Shown here piece by piece: positions 19,897 to 28,330 of a stretch of 28,330 nt of DNA. The notes beneath the pieces are model-generated. The model made no database searches. It was not told the origin of the DNA and was given only the letters and a program-made list of their open reading frames with translations. Position numbers and translations under genes: made by a program. Every line of letters begins with the position of its first letter. Position 1 is the stretch's first letter. This DNA is from a virus, in IMG/VR virus record IMGVR_UViG_3300030060_003887, positions 1 through 28,330 of that record, one strand, 5' to 3'.

Positions 19897-20219
19897 AATT
19901 CTATTGTTATATCACCATTAGTCTTAACAGAAACATTACCTACATCTGATGCCATTTCAAAACCTTTGGGCAAAGATCTTTCACCAATATCAACCCATTT
20001 GTTACCTGTGTATACTTGCAAAACGCCTACAGTTGTATTCCAAATGATGCTGCCAGCATTAAACTGCAAAGTATTTTTTTCTGCATCACTTATTTGACGT
20101 ACGTTATCTAAATCAACAGCACCAAGATTTATTTCTAGTATTCTTACTAATCTATTAAAAATATCTGATGTAACTTGTTCAGAGGCTAATGGTAGTTGAG
20201 TTTGTAATATTTTACTCAT
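19893..20219 (-). CDS. Small probable tail protein (108 aa)
   Basis: It starts MSKILQTQLPLASEQVTSD and has a beta-rich end with WNTTVGVLQVYTGNKW (about 60-75), a pattern often seen in short tail-fibre or tail-appendage proteins where a Trp/Gly sequence forms a beta repeat. It overlaps both neighbours by 4 nt, between the tail nozzle-like gene and the oxygenase. The role is inferred from position and composition. Confidence 0.55.
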   Translation of the reverse strand: MSKILQTQLPLASEQVTSDIFNRLVRILEINLGAVDLDNVRQISDAEKNTLQFNAGSIIWNTTVGVLQVYTGNKWVDIGERSLPKGFEMASDVGNVSVKTNGDITIEL

Positions 20220-22084
20220 CGCTTACCATCTGGCTTAATATCTACTCTAGTAGCACCTAAACGCCAACCAATAGATAAATTGCCATCATTTGTAGCATCA
20301 TCGTCTGATTCAAAACGCAAAGCCATTTGTCTTGATCTACTACGCACAAATACTTGTTGAGTAGATGAGGTTATAGCACTTGTGGAATTTGTGGTTAGAC
20401 TATCGCCTGGAAAGTTTCTAGTTTTTAGAACAACATTAACATTTCCATTATTGTCATCTTGTATAAATTTGTAGTCTGGTATGATTCTTTTTATAAAACT
20501 GAACTGTTCTCCATCGCCGATATCCATATCAGAGCTTTCTATAAAAACATTAGTCATGGGTGAACCATCATCATTAAAACCTTTTTCTTGTTGAAATAGA
20601 TAGCTATTACCTACAGCTCTAGGATAATTTTCTATACCAGCATCTAACCAAGCTGTTCTTACAAGTTGTCCATAAAACCAGATGTTTTCAGCGTAATTAT
20701 AAATTACATATCTGTCTATTTCGCTTGAGCTAGCAGAACAGTAGAACCATCCAACTTCATTTTTATCTGCTATTGTGAAAGCATTTATTTTAAATGATTG
20801 TGTAAGGTTAATATCATTAAAGACATAGTTATGCACAGAGCAAGGTAAATGTTGGACAGATCCATTGTATACGTAAAAGTTGTTGTAGCTCATCCAATAC
20901 ACGCCTTGTGGTGCAGTTACAGCTGCTTTAGGACCTACTAAACCCACACCTTCGTTAATTAAATTTATACCAAAGGTAAACGGTGGTCCAATAAACTGCA
21001 TGCTATACAATGAAGTATCAGTCCATACCAATATTTCTTGTCTAGCTTTTACGCCACCAATAATTGCAGAACCGCTAGATAATCTTAATGAACCAGCAGT
21101 ATTTGTTGTCAGTGGCTCAAAATCTAGTTCATTTTCTTGGTCACTAAATGCAATTAACATCGGATCTATACTACCTGTTCTTGAAGAGCCTGATATTGGA
21201 TCTGCACCTAAAACTATTAAATGCCTGTCTTTTTCTGATGTTATTACTTGTAAGCCTACTGTTGGCACTAAATTAGCACCAGATATACCTGATAGCTCAA
21301 CGGCTCGTGTTGTAACACCATTATTCTCTGTCCATTTAAATATACCACCTGCTCTGGGATTTATAATTAGATCTTCACCAAAATTATCATGCGACCAAAT
21401 TCTAAGTTGGTTTGTTGCATCCAAAGCACTTGTACTTCCAAACGTGCCAACACCCCAACCATCTATACCCCATCCTGTACCAGGAACGAAAACATCTAAA
21501 CCGACATTAACTTGGTAAGCACCTACAACTGAAGATCCGCCATTACCACTGTCAGATGAGTTTGCAGTAACAGTTGAACCAGAAGTATCTTTAGCTTCTA
21601 TGGTATAGCTATTTGCATTAACTATGGTTGCTATTTGATACTCTTGATTTAGAACAGCAGCAGTAATATTACCTCCTAATGAAGATGCACCACTAAATGT
21701 TACAAAATCATTTTGCACAGCTCCGTGAGCAGCATCTGCAACAGTAATAGTAGCGTCACCATTTGTAGCAGAAAATGTTACGTCACCTGCGGATGTTGTT
21801 AATCTTATTGGTGTTATATCGTTAAATACAGTACCACTTTCTATGTAATATTTGAGGTGTGTACCAATACCAAGATATTTTGTACCACCTAATGATATCC
21901 ATCCATGTAACGCTCTAGCTGTGCCTAAGTATGTGGAAGATGATAATTTTTCCCAGCCACCAAACTTTTCTGGTCTACCTTTTCTAAAACGCACCAAGTT
22001 ACAATCAAACCAACCACCCTCATTGTCGTAAGCAGTACCCTCTCGATTAATACCTGGTCTAAAAACTAATTTTTGTAAAGGCAT
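20216..22084 (-). CDS. Tail nozzle / DNA stabilisation protein (P22 gp10-like, tentative)
   Basis: A 622-aa beta-rich protein opening MPLQKLVFRPGINREGTAY, then a GGWFDCNLVRFRKG motif (about 23-36) and FGGWEK. This N-terminus marks a widespread phage structural family often annotated as packaged-DNA stabilisation protein, and is probably equivalent to the P22 gp10 or T7 gp12 nozzle that extends the short tail. Repeated aromatic/Gly blades suggest a propeller-like body. The insert at about 100-190 (Ser/Thr/Ala-rich) may be an added domain. A GAGG site lies before the ATG, which directly follows the lysozyme stop. Confidence 0.65.
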   Translation of the reverse strand: MPLQKLVFRPGINREGTAYDNEGGWFDCNLVRFRKGRPEKFGGWEKLSSSTYLGTARALHGWISLGGTKYLGIGTHLKYYIESGTVFNDITPIRLTTSAGDVTFSATNGDATITVADAAHGAVQNDFVTFSGASSLGGNITAAVLNQEYQIATIVNANSYTIEAKDTSGSTVTANSSDSGNGGSSVVGAYQVNVGLDVFVPGTGWGIDGWGVGTFGSTSALDATNQLRIWSHDNFGEDLIINPRAGGIFKWTENNGVTTRAVELSGISGANLVPTVGLQVITSEKDRHLIVLGADPISGSSRTGSIDPMLIAFSDQENELDFEPLTTNTAGSLRLSSGSAIIGGVKARQEILVWTDTSLYSMQFIGPPFTFGINLINEGVGLVGPKAAVTAPQGVYWMSYNNFYVYNGSVQHLPCSVHNYVFNDINLTQSFKINAFTIADKNEVGWFYCSASSSEIDRYVIYNYAENIWFYGQLVRTAWLDAGIENYPRAVGNSYLFQQEKGFNDDGSPMTNVFIESSDMDIGDGEQFSFIKRIIPDYKFIQDDNNGNVNVVLKTRNFPGDSLTTNSTSAITSSTQQVFVRSRSRQMALRFESDDDATNDGNLSIGWRLGATRVDIKPDGKR

Positions 22085-22567
22085 TTACACCTCAGTCCAA
22101 TCTTTGCCTTCAAACAACAAAGCTTCACTTTTTCTTCTTTTTACTAATCCTTCGTTTACCTCACCATTTACTTTATTCCATCTTTGTATTTGATATGGTA
22201 TATCTGCCCAATCAACATGCGTGCTATTTAAAACTTTTAACATAGTTGAATTTTTAAGATTAGTTGGACCTAGATTAAAAACCCAAGAAACTAAAGCGTC
22301 AAACTGGTTTTGGTTTAACTCTACTTTTACCAAATCATGTACGTAACCTTCATATTCTTCAAGTTCATGAGCTAATAATTCTTCAGCTTCTTCCATAGTT
22401 ATAGTCATGTTATCTTCAACAGGTGTGCCATCTTTTAATTTTAAAGACCCATAGCCTATCGTAGGCTTGTTAGCAGGACATCTGTAAGACACAGCATTAC
22501 CATCTGCATCTTTGGGACAACCTTCATAATGTTTTATAAGCGTTACGCCTTCTTGTGATATTTGCAT
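22085..22567 (-). CDS. Endolysin, phage lysozyme (GH24)
   Basis: A 160-aa muramidase that cuts the glycan strands of peptidoglycan at lysis. The catalytic glutamate lies in KHYEGC (Glu15), followed by YRCPANKPTIGYGS, where Cys30 and Thr36 match the Glu-Cys-Thr version of the T4-lysozyme active site with an enlarged loop. NQNQFDALVSWVFNLG and a GLVKRRKSEALLF segment complete the fold. The start is set at 22567, where GGAGAG lies 5 bases upstream; the frame extends to 22624 but that start has no site and overlaps the holin gene. There is no signal peptide, so release depends on the holin gene just upstream. Confidence 0.92.
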   Translation of the reverse strand: MQISQEGVTLIKHYEGCPKDADGNAVSYRCPANKPTIGYGSLKLKDGTPVEDNMTITMEEAEELLAHELEEYEGYVHDLVKVELNQNQFDALVSWVFNLGPTNLKNSTMLKVLNSTHVDWADIPYQIQRWNKVNGEVNEGLVKRRKSEALLFEGKDWTEV

Positions 22568-22568
22568 G

Positions 22569-23048
22569 TTACTCTCCTTTATCGGGGGTGTGAGATGCTC
22601 CGAAATAAAACGAAATAATTGCACTCGCTAGTCCTCCTAAATAGCCAAGCACTAAGTTAATTAACGCTTCGCTGTTTTGTTCTGGTGGTTGTAAAGTTAC
22701 TAAAAATATATACCCTAAAAATCCACCAATAGTAAATAAACCTATAATACGAGCAGTCCAATCCTTACTAAACATACTTCTTGCATTTTGTTTATCTGCT
22801 ACCTCTAGTTTAAAAACATCAACATCAAGCTCTTTCATTTGTACTTCAAAGTCTTGTTCTGCTTTTTTTAACTCTAACATTTGTTCAGGAGTGGCGTTTT
22901 GAATGGCTTGTTGTATAGATTTTTGATCATTTGATACGCCTAAAACCTCTGCTATTTTTCCCATAGCCATATTGCCAAGAGGTCCACCCATGGCAGACCC
23001 TAGTGTAGGTGCTACTGCACCAACAATATTTTTTAGTAATCCTTTCAT
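22569..23048 (-). CDS. Holin-like membrane protein (159 aa)
   Basis: Hydrophobic segments lie at about 5-26 (glycine-rich), 100-119 and 128-150, separated by a charged helical region (about 55-95). The arrangement, with an NARSMFSKDWTARI stretch before the membrane hairpin, resembles the three-segment holin family known from gene-transfer agents and phages. It would open the inner membrane and free the lysozyme encoded 1 nt downstream. It overlaps the XhlA-like gene by 4 nt. Confidence 0.75.
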   Translation of the reverse strand: MKGLLKNIVGAVAPTLGSAMGGPLGNMAMGKIAEVLGVSNDQKSIQQAIQNATPEQMLELKKAEQDFEVQMKELDVDVFKLEVADKQNARSMFSKDWTARIIGLFTIGGFLGYIFLVTLQPPEQNSEALINLVLGYLGGLASAIISFYFGASHTPDKGE

Positions 23049-23260
23049 ATTAAAAACCTCGTTAGAACAGCAATACCAATAGCACCTATGAAACCAAACA
23101 CTCCAAAAGTTGCAGCTTTTATGGTTGAATTTATATAGGTAATTTCTTGTTTTATATCAGAAAACTCGTTAAAAGCAGTTTTCCAACGTTCATGAGATAT
23201 GGTTTCAAGCTTTGTAAGCCTTTCTGCTACATCATTAACTGTCATTTTTTTATCAATCAT
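23045..23260 (-). CDS. XhlA-like lysis-associated protein (71 aa)
   Basis: An N-terminal coiled coil (about 8-45) is followed by one C-terminal membrane helix (about 48-70), the layout of XhlA/hemolysin-type phage lysis accessory proteins. It lies between the cyclase and the holin genes, overlapping both (8 and 4 nt). An ATG at codon 6 is an alternative start. It may help the holin or tether the lysis complex; a spanin role is less likely because there is no lipobox or periplasmic partner. Confidence 0.6.
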   Translation of the reverse strand: MIDKKMTVNDVAERLTKLETISHERWKTAFNEFSDIKQEITYINSTIKAATFGVFGFIGAIGIAVLTRFLI

Positions 23261-25013
23261 TTTGTAACGTATATATTTTAATTGGCTTTACTTTGCCTTT
23301 TACAAAAATACTTTCAAGTTCTTTCAATACAATTTGATCGCTGAAGTCACTTGCACTGATAGTATCATAACCTATAACAATATCTTCTCCAACTTCCTTT
23401 GTTGAGCTTTCTAATCTCGCTGCTAAATTTACAGCATCACCTATAGCAGAATAATCAAATCTAGTTTCACTACCCATGTTACCAACCACAGCATATCCAG
23501 TGTTGATACCAATGCCTATTTGTACACCAAGATTTGCTTTTTTAAATTTGTCCTGTATATCCTGTGCACATAAAACTGCCACAGTTTCATGGTTTGGAAC
23601 GTCTATAGGTGCATTAAATATAGCCATCATAGCGTCACCAATATATTTATCTACCATACCATCATATTCTTTTACAGTATTTGCTTGTATCGTTAAAGCT
23701 TCATTCATAATTTTAGTAACTTCTTCTGGTTCAAGTTTTTCAGACATGGCAGTAAAACCTCTAACATCAGTAAAAAGAAATGTGCAATATCGTCTTTCTC
23801 CACCTAGTACTAAAGATTCTGGATTATCTTGTAATTTTTTTACCTGTCTTGGATCTAAATAATGCTCAAACTGTTTTTTAATCTGTTGTCTTAGCTTGTA
23901 TTGTTGTCTAAATCTAAGATAAAAGGCTATTGATCCTGTTATAAATTCAGATATCAATGTCCAGGACACATCTATTAATAATCCCTTTTGTATTAGAAAG
24001 TAACCAGTTGTAGTGGTAATTATCATTAAAACCGTTGCAATAGTTATACCCCAAGTAATACCCAATAGGTGCAAAGCAAACCAAACTAATGATACAAAAA
24101 CGACTAACGAAAGCATTTCTACAGCTAATGCATAATCAGGTATATAAGGGCTATCTTGAATTAATATAGATTCTGCTAGTGCAGCTTGTATTTTATGTGG
24201 TTCTAACAAACCAACACTTGTCGCTACTTGTGGCATCACTCCGTTAGCTGTAACACCTACGAACACAAACTTACCTGCAACGTGCATCTCTTGTAACGTA
24301 GTTTGTTTAGTATCTACCCAACTAATCCATTTACGTCCAAAACTATCTGTTTTAACTGGTGGTATTCCACGTATTGATATTTCTTCAATACCATTATCAT
24401 TAGTTTTTATAATATAAGTTTCTACATTTAATAAAGATTTATAGATTTGTGTACCAAAACTAGGTATCCAGTCGTTATTGGGTGTTTTTACTAATAAGGG
24501 TATTCTGCGTACTAATTGATCAATATCTGTGGGAGCAATGGCTAACCCTTGAAGTGTGTGATTGGATAAGAGAAGCAGGTTCTCCTTCACTCCCGTTGAC
24601 ATTATACCACCATTATCGTCTCCTAGCACAACCGTACCAGGTGTTTTAGGATAATTACCCTTACCATCTTCAAACATAGCCAAGACTGATGGTGCAAACT
24701 TTAATGACTCTGCAAATATTTCATCGCCACCCATACGGTCTTTTTGAGGAAAACTTATAACCCAACCTACGCCTATGGCACCATTGTTAATTAAATCTAC
24801 TTGTATTTCTGCTAATCTTTGTCTAGGTATAGGCCAACCTCCCTCACGCTCTACATCATCTTCAGTAATATTTAGTATTACAAAGTTACCAGATGGTTCT
24901 GGTGTTTTTACAAAAGCGTCAAATACTTTTAATTTAAGTATTTCTGTAGGTGTTGATTGATTGATTACTGGTACTAAAAGTATTATAAGTATTGGTAATA
25001 ATAGTTTCTTCAT
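23253..25013 (-). CDS. CHASE2-domain class III adenylate cyclase
   Basis: A 586-aa inner-membrane sensor enzyme that should make cAMP from ATP. Order: N-terminal membrane segment (3-18), periplasmic CHASE2 domain (about 25-290), three membrane helices (about 296-317, 320-341, 347-366), linker, then a class III cyclase domain (about 405-585). Active-site residues are intact: metal-binding Asp415 (FTDVRGFT) and Asp460 (KYIGDAMMAIF), purine-selecting Lys456 with Ser522, and Asn529 and Arg533 in VNLAARLES. Lys with Ser/Thr at these places favours ATP over GTP. It directly follows the FecR gene with no gap; FecR-CHASE2-cyclase neighbours are common in bacterial genomes, so the pair was probably acquired together. 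The signal sensed is unknown. Confidence 0.9.
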   Translation of the reverse strand: MKKLLLPILIILLVPVINQSTPTEILKLKVFDAFVKTPEPSGNFVILNITEDDVEREGGWPIPRQRLAEIQVDLINNGAIGVGWVISFPQKDRMGGDEIFAESLKFAPSVLAMFEDGKGNYPKTPGTVVLGDDNGGIMSTGVKENLLLLSNHTLQGLAIAPTDIDQLVRRIPLLVKTPNNDWIPSFGTQIYKSLLNVETYIIKTNDNGIEEISIRGIPPVKTDSFGRKWISWVDTKQTTLQEMHVAGKFVFVGVTANGVMPQVATSVGLLEPHKIQAALAESILIQDSPYIPDYALAVEMLSLVVFVSLVWFALHLLGITWGITIATVLMIITTTTGYFLIQKGLLIDVSWTLISEFITGSIAFYLRFRQQYKLRQQIKKQFEHYLDPRQVKKLQDNPESLVLGGERRYCTFLFTDVRGFTAMSEKLEPEEVTKIMNEALTIQANTVKEYDGMVDKYIGDAMMAIFNAPIDVPNHETVAVLCAQDIQDKFKKANLGVQIGIGINTGYAVVGNMGSETRFDYSAIGDAVNLAARLESSTKEVGEDIVIGYDTISASDFSDQIVLKELESIFVKGKVKPIKIYTLQND

Positions 25014-26132
25014 TTAATCACTCTGAGTGATAGTAATTATACTATCGCTACCACCATTTATTTTAATTACGTTAGATACACCATCTTGTATTAGTATCAC
25101 AGTGTAAGCATTACTACCGTTTACATCTACTCGCACACTCTCATTTACTTCTCTACGTAAACTTACTAAATTACCTGTAATAAATGCGGTGATTTGTGTA
25201 TCTGGATCTTTACCAAGTAAAGTGCCTGTGATTTGTGTTGTGGTAGCTTGAGCTAAAACATCTTCTTCTTCGTCTATGGCTAATGCATCTAACACATTAA
25301 GCAAGTCTTCTAAATAGTTCACATCAAGATAATTTATATCTAACTCAGTAAATTCTAAACTATCTTCTTTTAAATAATCCTCTGCAAGATAATCAATATC
25401 TAAATCATTAAAGTCCAGGACGCTATCTGATTTTGTTGTGGTAGCTTCTTCTTCAACCAATACTTCTTCTTTAGGTGGCGTAACAATAAGCATGTTATCT
25501 ATCACGTCTAAGGTAAGATCTAAAATAACAGGTTTAGTAGGAGCTGATTCAAACACGCTTACGGTGGTTGCTTCGTAAGGTTTATTAAGTATAACAGTGC
25601 CCATAGCAGTAACTACCTCTATTTCGCCACTAGAAAGCCCCAGAGCGTCTGGTAGCAAAATTATAAGGCTACGCCCTAATTCATCAACTGTTGCTGTAAA
25701 ATCCGTCCCACGTATTGCTATATTAGCTGTAGGTGTTTTAAGGGTAATATTTTGTTTATCTATACGATTTAGATTGCCTGTTATAAACCTTGCAGTGCCA
25801 AGACCAAAGGTTAGAGCCATCTTTGCTTTACTAGGATCGGGATCGTATATGTATTCGTCTATAAGAAGCTGACTATGTTCTGTAAGTTTTACAGTAGATT
25901 CATCAAGAAAAGTTATAGCCATACGCCCATCTTTGGTTATGGCTTCATCATTACTTTGTATAGCAAACTTTAAGCCTGCATCATAAGGCTTGTCTCTAAC
26001 AATTTGTGCAGTGCCGTTTAATTCAGATATGTCGCCAATATCAACAGCTTGTGCTTGTACCTTGGTCGTTTTGAACAACACAAACGGTAGAAGCAGCAGT
26101 GCCAGATACAGATATAATCTTGAGCCAGTCAT
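25014..26132 (-). CDS. Secreted FecR-domain protein with curlin-like C-terminus
   Basis: A 372-aa exported protein. A signal peptide spans 1-28 (hydrophobic LALLLLPFVLF, then VQAQA). A FecR domain spans about 35-190, with NGTAQIV (39-45), a DESTVKL strand (77-83) and the hallmark TPTANIAIRGTDF (133-145). A Val/Glu-rich linker and a very acidic tandem stretch built on an LDIxYL theme follow (239-290). The C-terminus (about 338-370) is beta-rich and contains Q349-x-G351-x-x-N354, the core spacing of curlin repeats. It may be a periplasmic or surface partner of the cyclase, or cargo of the CsgG pore; both are inference. The signal peptide is encoded inside a 92-nt overlap with the preceding gene. 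Confidence 0.8.
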   Translation of the reverse strand: MTGSRLYLYLALLLLPFVLFKTTKVQAQAVDIGDISELNGTAQIVRDKPYDAGLKFAIQSNDEAITKDGRMAITFLDESTVKLTEHSQLLIDEYIYDPDPSKAKMALTFGLGTARFITGNLNRIDKQNITLKTPTANIAIRGTDFTATVDELGRSLIILLPDALGLSSGEIEVVTAMGTVILNKPYEATTVSVFESAPTKPVILDLTLDVIDNMLIVTPPKEEVLVEEEATTTKSDSVLDFNDLDIDYLAEDYLKEDSLEFTELDINYLDVNYLEDLLNVLDALAIDEEEDVLAQATTTQITGTLLGKDPDTQITAFITGNLVSLRREVNESVRVDVNGSNAYTVILIQDGVSNVIKINGGSDSIITITQSD

Positions 26133-26769
26133 TATCTTGTGTACTTAGTTGTGAAATATTAAATGTTCTTGAGCCACCTGTGTGATCAAGATAAAAATAT
26201 CCACCTGCTGAGGCTGTAACACCTGTGCCAGTGTAAGTAACAGAGTTATCTGAACCGTCAATATCCATATAGTTTGTTGCACCATCTATATTTATATTAG
26301 ATGTTATAGTGTTATTAGAACCATTTATAATCCAATCTAAATCTAAATTTGATGCCATAGCACTTGTGCCTTGATTTAAAGTAAAAGTGTTACCGCTACC
26401 TGTAACATCTACATATTGATTAGAACCATCAGAGCTATAAGTGTCTGTTGGATCTACTTGTATTGTAAAAGTATTGGTACCGCCATCAAATTCATAAAAA
26501 CCAGTAAAGTTGTCTGCAAATATATCTCCTAGGAATTTATTGGTTGCACCAATCATATTTATATCAAGTGTCATACTATTACCGTCTAGATCAAAAGCAG
26601 TTAAGTTACCTGCTGAACTATTAAGACCACCAATAATATTTGATATACCTAGTTGTTCTAAATCTATATTTGCTCCTGTACCTGACTGATCAACATATAT
26701 TTCATTATCTGCTGAAAATAGTGCAAGTGAACAAACAGCTAATACGCTAATAAGTTTATTCTTCATCAT
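26041..26769 (-). CDS. Secreted curlin/beta-solenoid-like protein, candidate CsgG cargo
   Basis: A 242-aa protein with an N-terminal signal peptide (about 1-20). Just after it, Q28-S-G and Q39-L-G-I-S-N44 reproduce the curlin Gln-x-Gly-x-x-Asn spacing. The rest is made of short Asn/Gly/Asp/Thr-rich beta units (for example GSGNTFTLNQG at 124-134, GSNNTITSNINIDGATN at 150-166, GSDNSVTYTG at 172-181), as expected for a beta-solenoid or amyloid-like fibre. The end has two cysteines (230 and 242). It overlaps csgG by 14 nt, so it is a natural cargo candidate. It is not a plain CsgA or CsgB: the repeats are irregular. Function as an amyloid is inference. Confidence 0.7.
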   Translation of the reverse strand: MMKNKLISVLAVCSLALFSADNEIYVDQSGTGANIDLEQLGISNIIGGLNSSAGNLTAFDLDGNSMTLDINMIGATNKFLGDIFADNFTGFYEFDGGTNTFTIQVDPTDTYSSDGSNQYVDVTGSGNTFTLNQGTSAMASNLDLDWIINGSNNTITSNINIDGATNYMDIDGSDNSVTYTGTGVTASAGGYFYLDHTGGSRTFNISQLSTQDNDWLKIISVSGTAASTVCVVQNDQGTSTSC

Positions 26770-27604
26770 TTAATTCTACTCCTTCGTTATTATTTTGTAA
26801 AACCCAGAAACCTTTTTCATATCCAGTTTCAATTATTTCAAGCACACCACCTTCAATAGCTTTCATCAAGGCAATAGTGGACGATTCATTTCTTGCATTA
26901 CCAAACTCAACTTCTACAAGTTCGGTATTTGCTTCCACAAATCTAAAAACATCTTCTGATCTACCATAACTAAATATGGTTTTTTGACTTAAAACTTCTA
27001 ACAAAACCTCGCCAGTTGCTACAGAAACCATACGCATACTTATGGTTATATTATCTTCTCTGTATTGTACGCTTGCTCCTATACCTAGATATCTAGCACC
27101 AGAACCACCACTTTCTAAATTAGCTTCGTAAGATAAAACAGCTCCTTCTATAAGAATACCAGCAAATAATAAAGGTCGTAGAGCTTTTTTCTTTTCTTCT
27201 TCGTTTGCAGATTGTTCTCTGGCACTACGAATGAGCTGTCTTTCCTTAGTAAGGTTATCTAGTCCTACTCGCTCAACAACTCTAAAAAACTTGCCGTCAC
27301 CTGCATGTTTTAAAGCTCTAATTAATAAAGCATTTGGTTGTTGAGTTATAGCTGTACTAAACAAAGCGAATTCGCTATTGCTTTTTCTTTGACCTGTTTG
27401 ATCCGTAAATGACATAGGATATACGGCTACGACTGGACTAACTTGAGGTATTGGTACGTTTTTTAATTGTTGTGATTGTATATCTTGTATTTTGGCAACG
27501 TCTTTAGAAAACCTTTGCTCGTAAGTGTCTTCAATCTGATCTAATGTAGAACAACTAGAAAGTAAAAGTGCCAATAGGAATAACGATTTCGGTAACTGTA
27601 CCAT
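26756..27604 (-). CDS. csgG: CsgG-like outer-membrane curli secretion channel
   Basis: A 282-aa lipoprotein, close to the 277 aa of E. coli CsgG. The signal peptide ends in a lipobox LSSC with Cys18 as the lipidation site. It keeps the family pattern along its whole length: VAVYPMSFTDQTGQRK (59-74), FSTAI (82-86), the ERVGLDNLTKERQLIR helix (111-126), LIEGAVLSYEANLESGG (151-167), ARYLGIGA (170-177), SVATGEVL (194-201) and FRFVEA (220-225). CsgG forms a nonamer pore through which curli subunits cross the outer membrane. The residues lining the narrow ring (Tyr51, Asn55 and Phe56 in E. coli) appear changed except the Phe. It lies between a CsgF-like gene and a curlin-like gene. No CsgA, CsgB, CsgD or CsgE is visible. 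Confidence 0.93.
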   Translation of the reverse strand: MVQLPKSLFLLALLLSSCSTLDQIEDTYEQRFSKDVAKIQDIQSQQLKNVPIPQVSPVVAVYPMSFTDQTGQRKSNSEFALFSTAITQQPNALLIRALKHAGDGKFFRVVERVGLDNLTKERQLIRSAREQSANEEEKKKALRPLLFAGILIEGAVLSYEANLESGGSGARYLGIGASVQYREDNITISMRMVSVATGEVLLEVLSQKTIFSYGRSEDVFRFVEANTELVEVEFGNARNESSTIALMKAIEGGVLEIIETGYEKGFWVLQNNNEGVELNDEE

Positions 27605-28067
27605 CTGCCTCAGTAATTTTAAGGGTTAAAGTTACACCATCACTTGTATACTCAATAGTATTACCTTCTAAAGTGATGACACCTTCGCTCTGCGGTGTTT
27701 CTCCGAATAAGTTATTTACTAACTGTCTTGATAATTCTGCGTAAACTCTAGACTCTAAATTACGCATAAATCTTGCAAGAGTAGAGTTTTCTTTTTCTCT
27801 TTTTATCTCATCTTGTAAGGCTTTTATTTCTTCTTTTATTGTAAGTTTACGTGTATGTTCTTGGTTTTCTATTGTTAAATAATGACTAGACGTGCCTATA
27901 CCGTTAAAACTTGGAGATTTAAATTTATGTGTTATGGTATCTGATTTTAAATTTATAGCAATAACAGAAACAAACATAATTGCACCTATAAAAAATAACC
28001 AAGCAACTATTTTAGTTTTTGCAACTTCATCTTCTATCTGTCTTTTTTTAGTCTTTTCTTTGATCAT
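27555..28067 (-). CDS. csgF: CsgF-like curli assembly protein with membrane anchor
   Basis: A 170-aa protein. Residues 49-56 (FKSPSFNG) match the mature N-terminus of CsgF (FRNPNFGG in E. coli), the part that plugs into the CsgG barrel. The C-terminal beta region (about 130-168, TLTLKITEADGTVTEIVIP) matches the CsgF C-terminal domain. Differences from E. coli CsgF (138 aa) are a charged cytoplasmic-like leader (1-19), a hydrophobic segment (20-40) without a clear cleavage site, and an added charged helix (about 73-118). It overlaps csgG by 50 nt and the upstream gene by 20 nt. In the known system CsgF sits with CsgG and couples secretion to fibre nucleation. Confidence 0.8.
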   Translation of the reverse strand: MIKEKTKKRQIEDEVAKTKIVAWLFFIGAIMFVSVIAINLKSDTITHKFKSPSFNGIGTSSHYLTIENQEHTRKLTIKEEIKALQDEIKREKENSTLARFMRNLESRVYAELSRQLVNNLFGETPQSEGVITLEGNTIEYTSDGVTLTLKITEADGTVTEIVIPIGTFTF

Positions 28068-28330
28068 CTCTATCTGCTTTTGCTATTTTGTTACTATCAA
28101 TTAGTTGTGGAACACCTAATATAGTTTTAATTAAAGTGTCCTGGCGTATAATTTCATTATCTAAGCTACGCACTCTGTCTATCAATGCTACTAAAATACC
28201 ATGCTGAGAGTCAAGTTTTGTACCTAGCCTTTCTTCTATAGCTGCTATCTGACCTTCAACTTTTTCATCAACGGTATCAAGTTTTGTTTCCATACCGTCA
28301 ACAATACGCATTATAAGTTTATAAATAAAC
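28048..28330 (-). CDS. Coiled-coil protein, probably 5'-truncated by window edge
   Basis: From the ATG at 28311 the product has 87 residues, mostly a long charged coiled coil (from MRIVDGMETKLDTVDEKVE onward), then a short hydrophobic stretch and a polar tail. The frame stays open upstream to the window edge and no ribosome site precedes 28311, so the true start may lie outside. It overlaps csgF by 20 nt. It resembles small coiled-coil phage proteins beside lysis or tail genes; no family is assigned. Confidence 0.6.
   Translation of the reverse strand, partial: FIYKLIMRIVDGMETKLDTVDEKVEGQIAAIEERLGTKLDSQHGILVALIDRVRSLDNEIIRQDTLIKTILGVPQLIDSNKIAKADRDDQRKD

Follow-up and report, generated by a model that had tools for sequence, protein, structure and literature searches.

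The question raised by this locus is whether a FecR-domain protein encoded in the curli operon of a marine phage carries a curlin at its C-terminus, and could thus bridge a CHASE2-cyclase sensor and the CsgG export pore. The window, i.e. the whole stretch of DNA analysed, comprises 28,330 nucleotides of the virus record IMGVR_UViG_3300030060_003887. The relevant features are listed below in the direction of transcription.

28048..28311 (-), small coiled-coil protein, truncated by the end of the window
27555..28067 (-), CsgF (PF10614, E=7.5e-14)
26756..27604 (-), CsgG outer-membrane pore protein (PF03783, E=6.9e-46)
26041..26769 (-), curlin 1, a curlin-like secreted protein of 242 aa, overlapping the FecR gene by 92 nt
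25014..26132 (-), FecR-domain protein of 372 aa with ATG start, signal peptide, PF04773 and PHROG 37870
25014..25237 (-), C-terminal module of the FecR protein (residues ~300-372 and the stop codon), conserved among phages and Caulobacteraceae cassettes
25071..25088 (-), Q-D-G-V-S-N motif (residues 349-354), present in the window-type lineage only
25017..25043 (-), terminal curlin-kernel strand S-I-I-T-I-T-Q-S-D (residues 364-372), with invariant Q370
23253..25013 (-), CHASE2 and class III adenylate/guanylate cyclase (PF05226, E=6.7e-26; PF00211, E=1e-19)

Architecture of the FecR protein and its operon

The FecR protein consists of a signal peptide (residues 1-~29, MTGSRLYLYLALLLLPFVLFKTTKVQAQA, recognised by eye), a FecR domain (residues 66-151), an acidic linker (~222-290) and a C-terminal module (~300-372), of which the final ~60 residues are rich in beta strands. 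The FecR domain matches PF04773 with E=1.9e-9 and 38.3 bits, compared with a curated cut-off of 24. PHROG 37870, a family of unknown function, covers residues 17-371 (E=3.2e-68) and hence includes the tail, which is therefore part of a phage protein family. With this full-length match and its place between curlin and cyclase, the protein is a FecR of the phage curli cassette. It is not an anti-sigma factor of the FecIR type, since its N-terminus is a signal peptide and its partner gene encodes a CHASE2 cyclase; a Pfam and ORF survey of the neighbouring genes found no adjoining sigma-factor gene. In a Foldseek search with the AF2 model of the full-length protein, the best matches were periplasmic domains of FecR-type anti-sigma factors (4m0h and 6ovk, E about 1e-3).

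The preliminary description is supported in that the FecR protein, whose tail has curlin-like features, sits inside a csgF-csgG-curlin-FecR-CHASE2 cyclase operon. The CHASE2-cyclase gene directly follows the FecR gene, with no second curlin gene in between. A cyclase was found in 79 window-type loci, and in 71 of them FecR adjoins it; insertions occur in the remaining eight. Between the two genes, L065, L066, L052, L060, L067-L069 and L077 carry a DNA methyltransferase or small ORFs.

Where curlin 1 and FecR overlap (26041-26132), the final ~30 curlin codons also code, read in a different frame, for the FecR signal peptide. The two reading frames are preserved in 51 distinct relatives, and the variation follows the wobble positions of the curlin codons. 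In whole relatives the small coiled-coil protein is 116 aa long and comprises a single transmembrane helix at the N-terminus and a coiled coil (e.g. L007:2759-3109); a holin PHROG matches it weakly (E=0.02). Wittmers et al. 2022 describe one histidine kinase, in some cases two, preceding CsgF (PMC9599517). Neither the small protein of the window nor either of two ~93-aa proteins in HTVC008M is long enough to be a kinase.

A small membrane protein and a phage lysozyme follow the cassette directly on the same strand (20216-23048). Late expression near lysis would suit this position (compare the lysis idea for Melnitz, PMC9004378). A head protein also lies directly downstream of the cassette in the 28.3-kb virus record, and it is 34-42% identical to those of phages DSL-LC04, HTVC027P and HTVC023P. 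Judged by these affinities, the window phage is not close to HTVC008M and Melnitz, the cultured curli-carrying phages in the annotated collection.

Comparison with published phage cassettes

The cassette as such, csgF-csgG-curlin-FecR-CHASE2 cyclase, has already been published for pelagiphages (PMC9599517). That study reports podo- and myo-pelagiphages that encode CsgF, CsgG, CsgA/B, FecR and adenylate cyclase. Genes and gene order of the window correspond to those of HTVC008M (gp14-19), and the FecR proteins of the two phages share 35% identity over 96% of their length, tail included. FecR is found directly after curlin 1 in the cassettes of all three phage types. The window phage nevertheless belongs to another group than HTVC008M and Melnitz. 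It lacks the second curlin gene that these phages carry between FecR and cyclase, and its FecR contains a Q-x-G-x-x-N motif which is missing from theirs. The second curlin of HTVC008M (L082:7055-8377) has a PA14 domain before its curlin repeats (PF07691, E=2.7e-6). A csgG gene is also carried by OR851715.1 (Salmonella phage S.Kent 1-2-1, 1.5 kb), which, given its size, may be a fragment of a bacterial chromosome. Within the available text of the literature searched, pelagiphage curli papers included, no description of the FecR tail was found. The curlin-like end specific to the cassette FecR is a new detail, and worth a simple experiment.

Conservation of the terminal strand

The curlin kernel is described as N-$-Psi-$-Psi-$-Q, preceded by an X-G-X-X arc (PMC10192328). 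The terminal strand of FecR fits this kernel together with the preceding arc, with N, S, T or D at position 1 (S in the window). Similar C-termini occur in phage curlins (DIDIIQRD, DIDISQTD) and in bacterial curlins (SVTVTQN, HITITQH). The conserved end of the tail is [NST]-x-I/V-x-I/V-x-Q-x(1-2)-COOH. An alignment of 31 FecR proteins from phages and bacteria shows N/S/T364, I/V366, I/V368 and Q370 in the last strand, with Gln in all sequences at position 370, and Y-x-Psi-x-Psi-x-Q in the strand at 343-349. Averaged over both strands, the core-facing positions have an entropy of 0.81 bits versus 1.87 bits for those facing outward (one-sided Mann-Whitney p=0.006). Phage FecR proteins place an invariant Gln at the core-facing end of two strands which are 21-22 residues apart.

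The pattern G-x(2-4)-[NDST]-x-Psi-x-Psi-x-Q-x(0-3)-COOH closes every one of the 91 distinct phage FecR tails that are intact. This strict pattern was absent from 343 other phage ORFs and occurred in 2 of 328 bacterial ORFs, both of them FecR proteins of Caulobacteraceae cassettes, but since it was written after the FecR sequences had been seen, the zero background overstates its significance. A looser end, [ILV]-x-[ILV]-x-Q-x(0-3), is found in 91/93 FecR proteins, 31/48 of curlin 1 and 15/36 of curlin 2, compared with 7/671 in the background (two Caulobacteraceae FecR proteins included); the two FecR proteins without it are cut by contig ends. With a pattern derived from FecR itself and sequences that share ancestry, such counts characterise a family; they are neither probabilities nor independent events.

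The Q-x-G-x-x-N motif is of a different kind. The preliminary description had placed it at curlin spacing in a beta-rich tail that follows acidic repeats. Tail, motif and linker are indeed present, the linker being acidic with repeated L-D-x-[ND]-x-L-like stretches as read from the translation, but the spacing is only partly curlin-like. The residue at +11 from Q349 is G360 instead of Gln, and the next Gln, Q370, follows at +21, a distance close to the ~23 residues of a curlin repeat. In shuffled versions of the FecR protein the motif arises in 3.0% of cases anywhere and in 0.3% within the last 45 residues; among 363 other ORFs, 26 contain it at some position. All 51 distinct window-type FecR tails have it, against none of 57 others (HTVC008M/Melnitz type). 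Being confined to the window-type lineage, it is not the defining trait of the FecR family.

Is the tail a curlin domain?

Profile searches did not identify the tail as a homologous curlin domain. PF07012 gave no match at E<=10 with the FecR tails of the window, HTVC008M, Melnitz and Caulobacteraceae, and the curlin models of NCBIfam did not match the FecR tail either. Aligned with three phage curlin alignments in hhalign, the tail reached probabilities of 0.2-0.5%, which is noise level: 9-27 of 100 column-permuted controls scored as high, and CsgG or the FecR domain itself does as well. These tests are of limited power, since curlin 1 of the window likewise has no PF07012 match, and since several true curlin segments score under 1% (compared with other curlins, 50-column segments gave values between 0.1 and 97%). 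A curlin-unit PSSM has its best match in most FecR proteins at the C-terminal end, with marginal shuffle p values of 0.02-0.13 for the phage members tested. The score is highest in the window type (2.9 versus -3.9 to 1.4 in the other phage types). When an HMM of the FecR tail was run against all fetched ORFs, curlins dominated the best matches outside FecR, at E-values of about 0.2 or worse. Compared with PF07012 curlins, the tail contains at most about 1.5 degenerate repeats.

Structure prediction was of low confidence. AF2 modelled the full FecR protein with a pLDDT of 45 and a low-confidence strand at 365-371. For the tail alone the pLDDT was 64, and strands were predicted, again with low confidence, at 314-319, 322-327, 343-349 and 352-358. 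This low-confidence model forms two hairpins rather than a solenoid, and its last strand is unpaired. Such an unpaired edge would be compatible with a strand awaiting a partner, yet the AF2 confidence is too low to conclude so. Foldseek returned no match for the tail-alone model, and a search of solved structures with profiles of the FecR family and of the tail gave nothing significant.

Because curlin models and profiles failed to match and the PSSM is marginal, we speak of a curlin-like strand and not of a curlin domain. The residue pattern supports the designation "curlin-like terminal strand". A fused homologous curlin domain is not supported, in view of the missing PF07012 match, the profile-profile noise and the low-confidence AF2 models, and it does not survive the refuting test named in the preliminary description, a profile search of limited power. 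Of the preliminary description as a FecR fused to a curlin-like C-terminus, the joining of FecR to a tail with a curlin-kernel strand is supported, but homology to curlin is not. The idea that the tail arose when the second curlin gene, absent here, was fused to FecR was also considered and rejected, since the FecR proteins of HTVC008M, Melnitz and Caulobacteraceae have the tail besides separate curlin genes.

Bacterial cassettes and FecR-CHASE2 pairs

Chromosomal cassettes of the type csgF-csgG-curlin(s)-FecR-CHASE2 cyclase were found in two Caulobacteraceae MAGs and one Hyphomonas MAG (L185, L186, L188). They were the only ones with a full-length FecR in our survey of samples of Alphaproteobacteria and Caulobacterales, so that the bacterial side rests on few cases. 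The FecR of the Caulobacteraceae cassette ends in VNGGGTVINVTQD, and its second curlin in NITITQ. In Hyphomonas the FecR retains the module, yet it lacks the terminal Gln and ends in GASGSVFILE.

FecR-CHASE2 clusters have been published for Campylobacterota (PMC9239204) and as Burkholderia BiofilmReg (PMC5192318). These pairs and those of L247 and L252-L257 combine, as in the window, a secreted or periplasmic FecR protein with a CHASE2 sensor; no curli genes were found alongside them. The curlin-like strand is absent from FecR proteins near CHASE2 without curli genes (L247, L248, L250, L252-L257; some of these ORFs are incomplete). Such proteins are short, have acidic or proline-rich tails, bear LysM, or contain long adhesin-like parts. 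Comparison of the tails across loci hence indicates that the curlin-like end goes with curli, and among the loci examined this last strand is restricted to FecR proteins of curli cassettes. The alphaproteobacterial loci L255, L256 and L257 encode FecR within long adhesin-like proteins with cadherin, Ig, RTX and nidogen-like domains, beside CHASE2 cyclases. FecR fused to surface modules next to CHASE2 cyclases shows that a FecR linking a surface protein and CHASE2 recurs.

Possible functions of the tail

We tentatively propose that FecR is a periplasmic adaptor, whose curlin-mimicking tail touches curlin subunits or the entrance of CsgG and reports to the CHASE2 cyclase. The FecR domain would serve the neighbouring sensor, as FecR proteins paired with CHASE2 are thought to do. 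The cassette-specific C-terminal module would present the curlin-kernel strand, able to pair with curlin subunits while these are unfolded, or to dock at their point of entry into CsgG. Curlin supply or export status might then be passed on to CHASE2 and change cAMP. Of the explanations considered this is the likeliest; in its favour count the domains and operon, the kernel-like conservation of the last strand, the similar ends of phage and bacterial curlins, the absence of such a tail from FecR proteins near CHASE2 without curli genes, and the recurrent linking of FecR to surface modules beside CHASE2 cyclases. Against this proposal count the lack of statistical homology between tail and curlin, the marginal PSSM scores, the Hyphomonas FecR without terminal Gln, and the weak AF2 models. 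The same observations suit a plainer explanation, in which the tail is an ordinary beta-rich domain that folds on FecR or contacts CHASE2, and its likeness to curlin reflects convergence of short strands with no curlin contact; the hairpins of the low-confidence model, in place of a solenoid, would agree with it as well. However, a pair of strands spaced 21-22 residues, each with an invariant core-facing Gln, is characteristic of curlins rather than of proteins in general, and the module was found only on FecR proteins of curli cassettes among those examined. We regard this explanation as possible, if somewhat doubtful.

The remaining alternatives assign the tail to the export machinery or to the fibre. 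FecR could replace the missing CsgE: its tail would gate or load CsgG at the periplasmic face, and pore occupancy would be reported through the link to CHASE2. No CsgE was found in the phage cassettes (PMC9599517) or among the Pfam matches of the window operon, and the constant place of FecR after curlin 1 in all three phage cassette types would fit such a role. FecR has no visible similarity to CsgE, however, a contact with CsgG is putative, and the alphaproteobacterial modules lack CsgE too (PMC9599517), which makes a substitution quite unlikely. Very unlikely is the version of the preliminary description, an export of FecR through CsgG, or a tail which caps or nucleates the fibre outside like the minor subunit CsgB, even though the terminal strand resembles curlin C-termini and the most curlin-like tail by PSSM occurs in the window-type phages, which have no second curlin gene. 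CsgG passes unfolded chains, so that the folded FecR domain should not pass it, and export or nucleation is accordingly less likely than a periplasmic role. Moreover, no export sequence resembling N22 was recognised by eye after the signal peptide, and an exported FecR could not touch CHASE2 in the inner membrane. Presumably FecR stays in the periplasm.

Extending the adaptor proposal, FecR adaptors of CHASE2 sensors may generally carry tails that mimic the exported surface protein encoded alongside them, and the curlin-mimicking strand may let the phage cyclase sensor measure the export of amyloid subunits and set host cAMP during infection. We consider this extension rather doubtful.

Significance

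No input signal is known for CHASE2 histidine kinases (PMC5192318). For the curli genes of phages, capture of siblings, superinfection defence and a lysis pore have been proposed (PMC7029224, PMC9599517, PMC9004378). A FecR tail that copies a fibre strand would be a concrete and testable link from amyloid export to cAMP. If true, it would favour phage modules that both produce and monitor fibres over modules that only form a pore.
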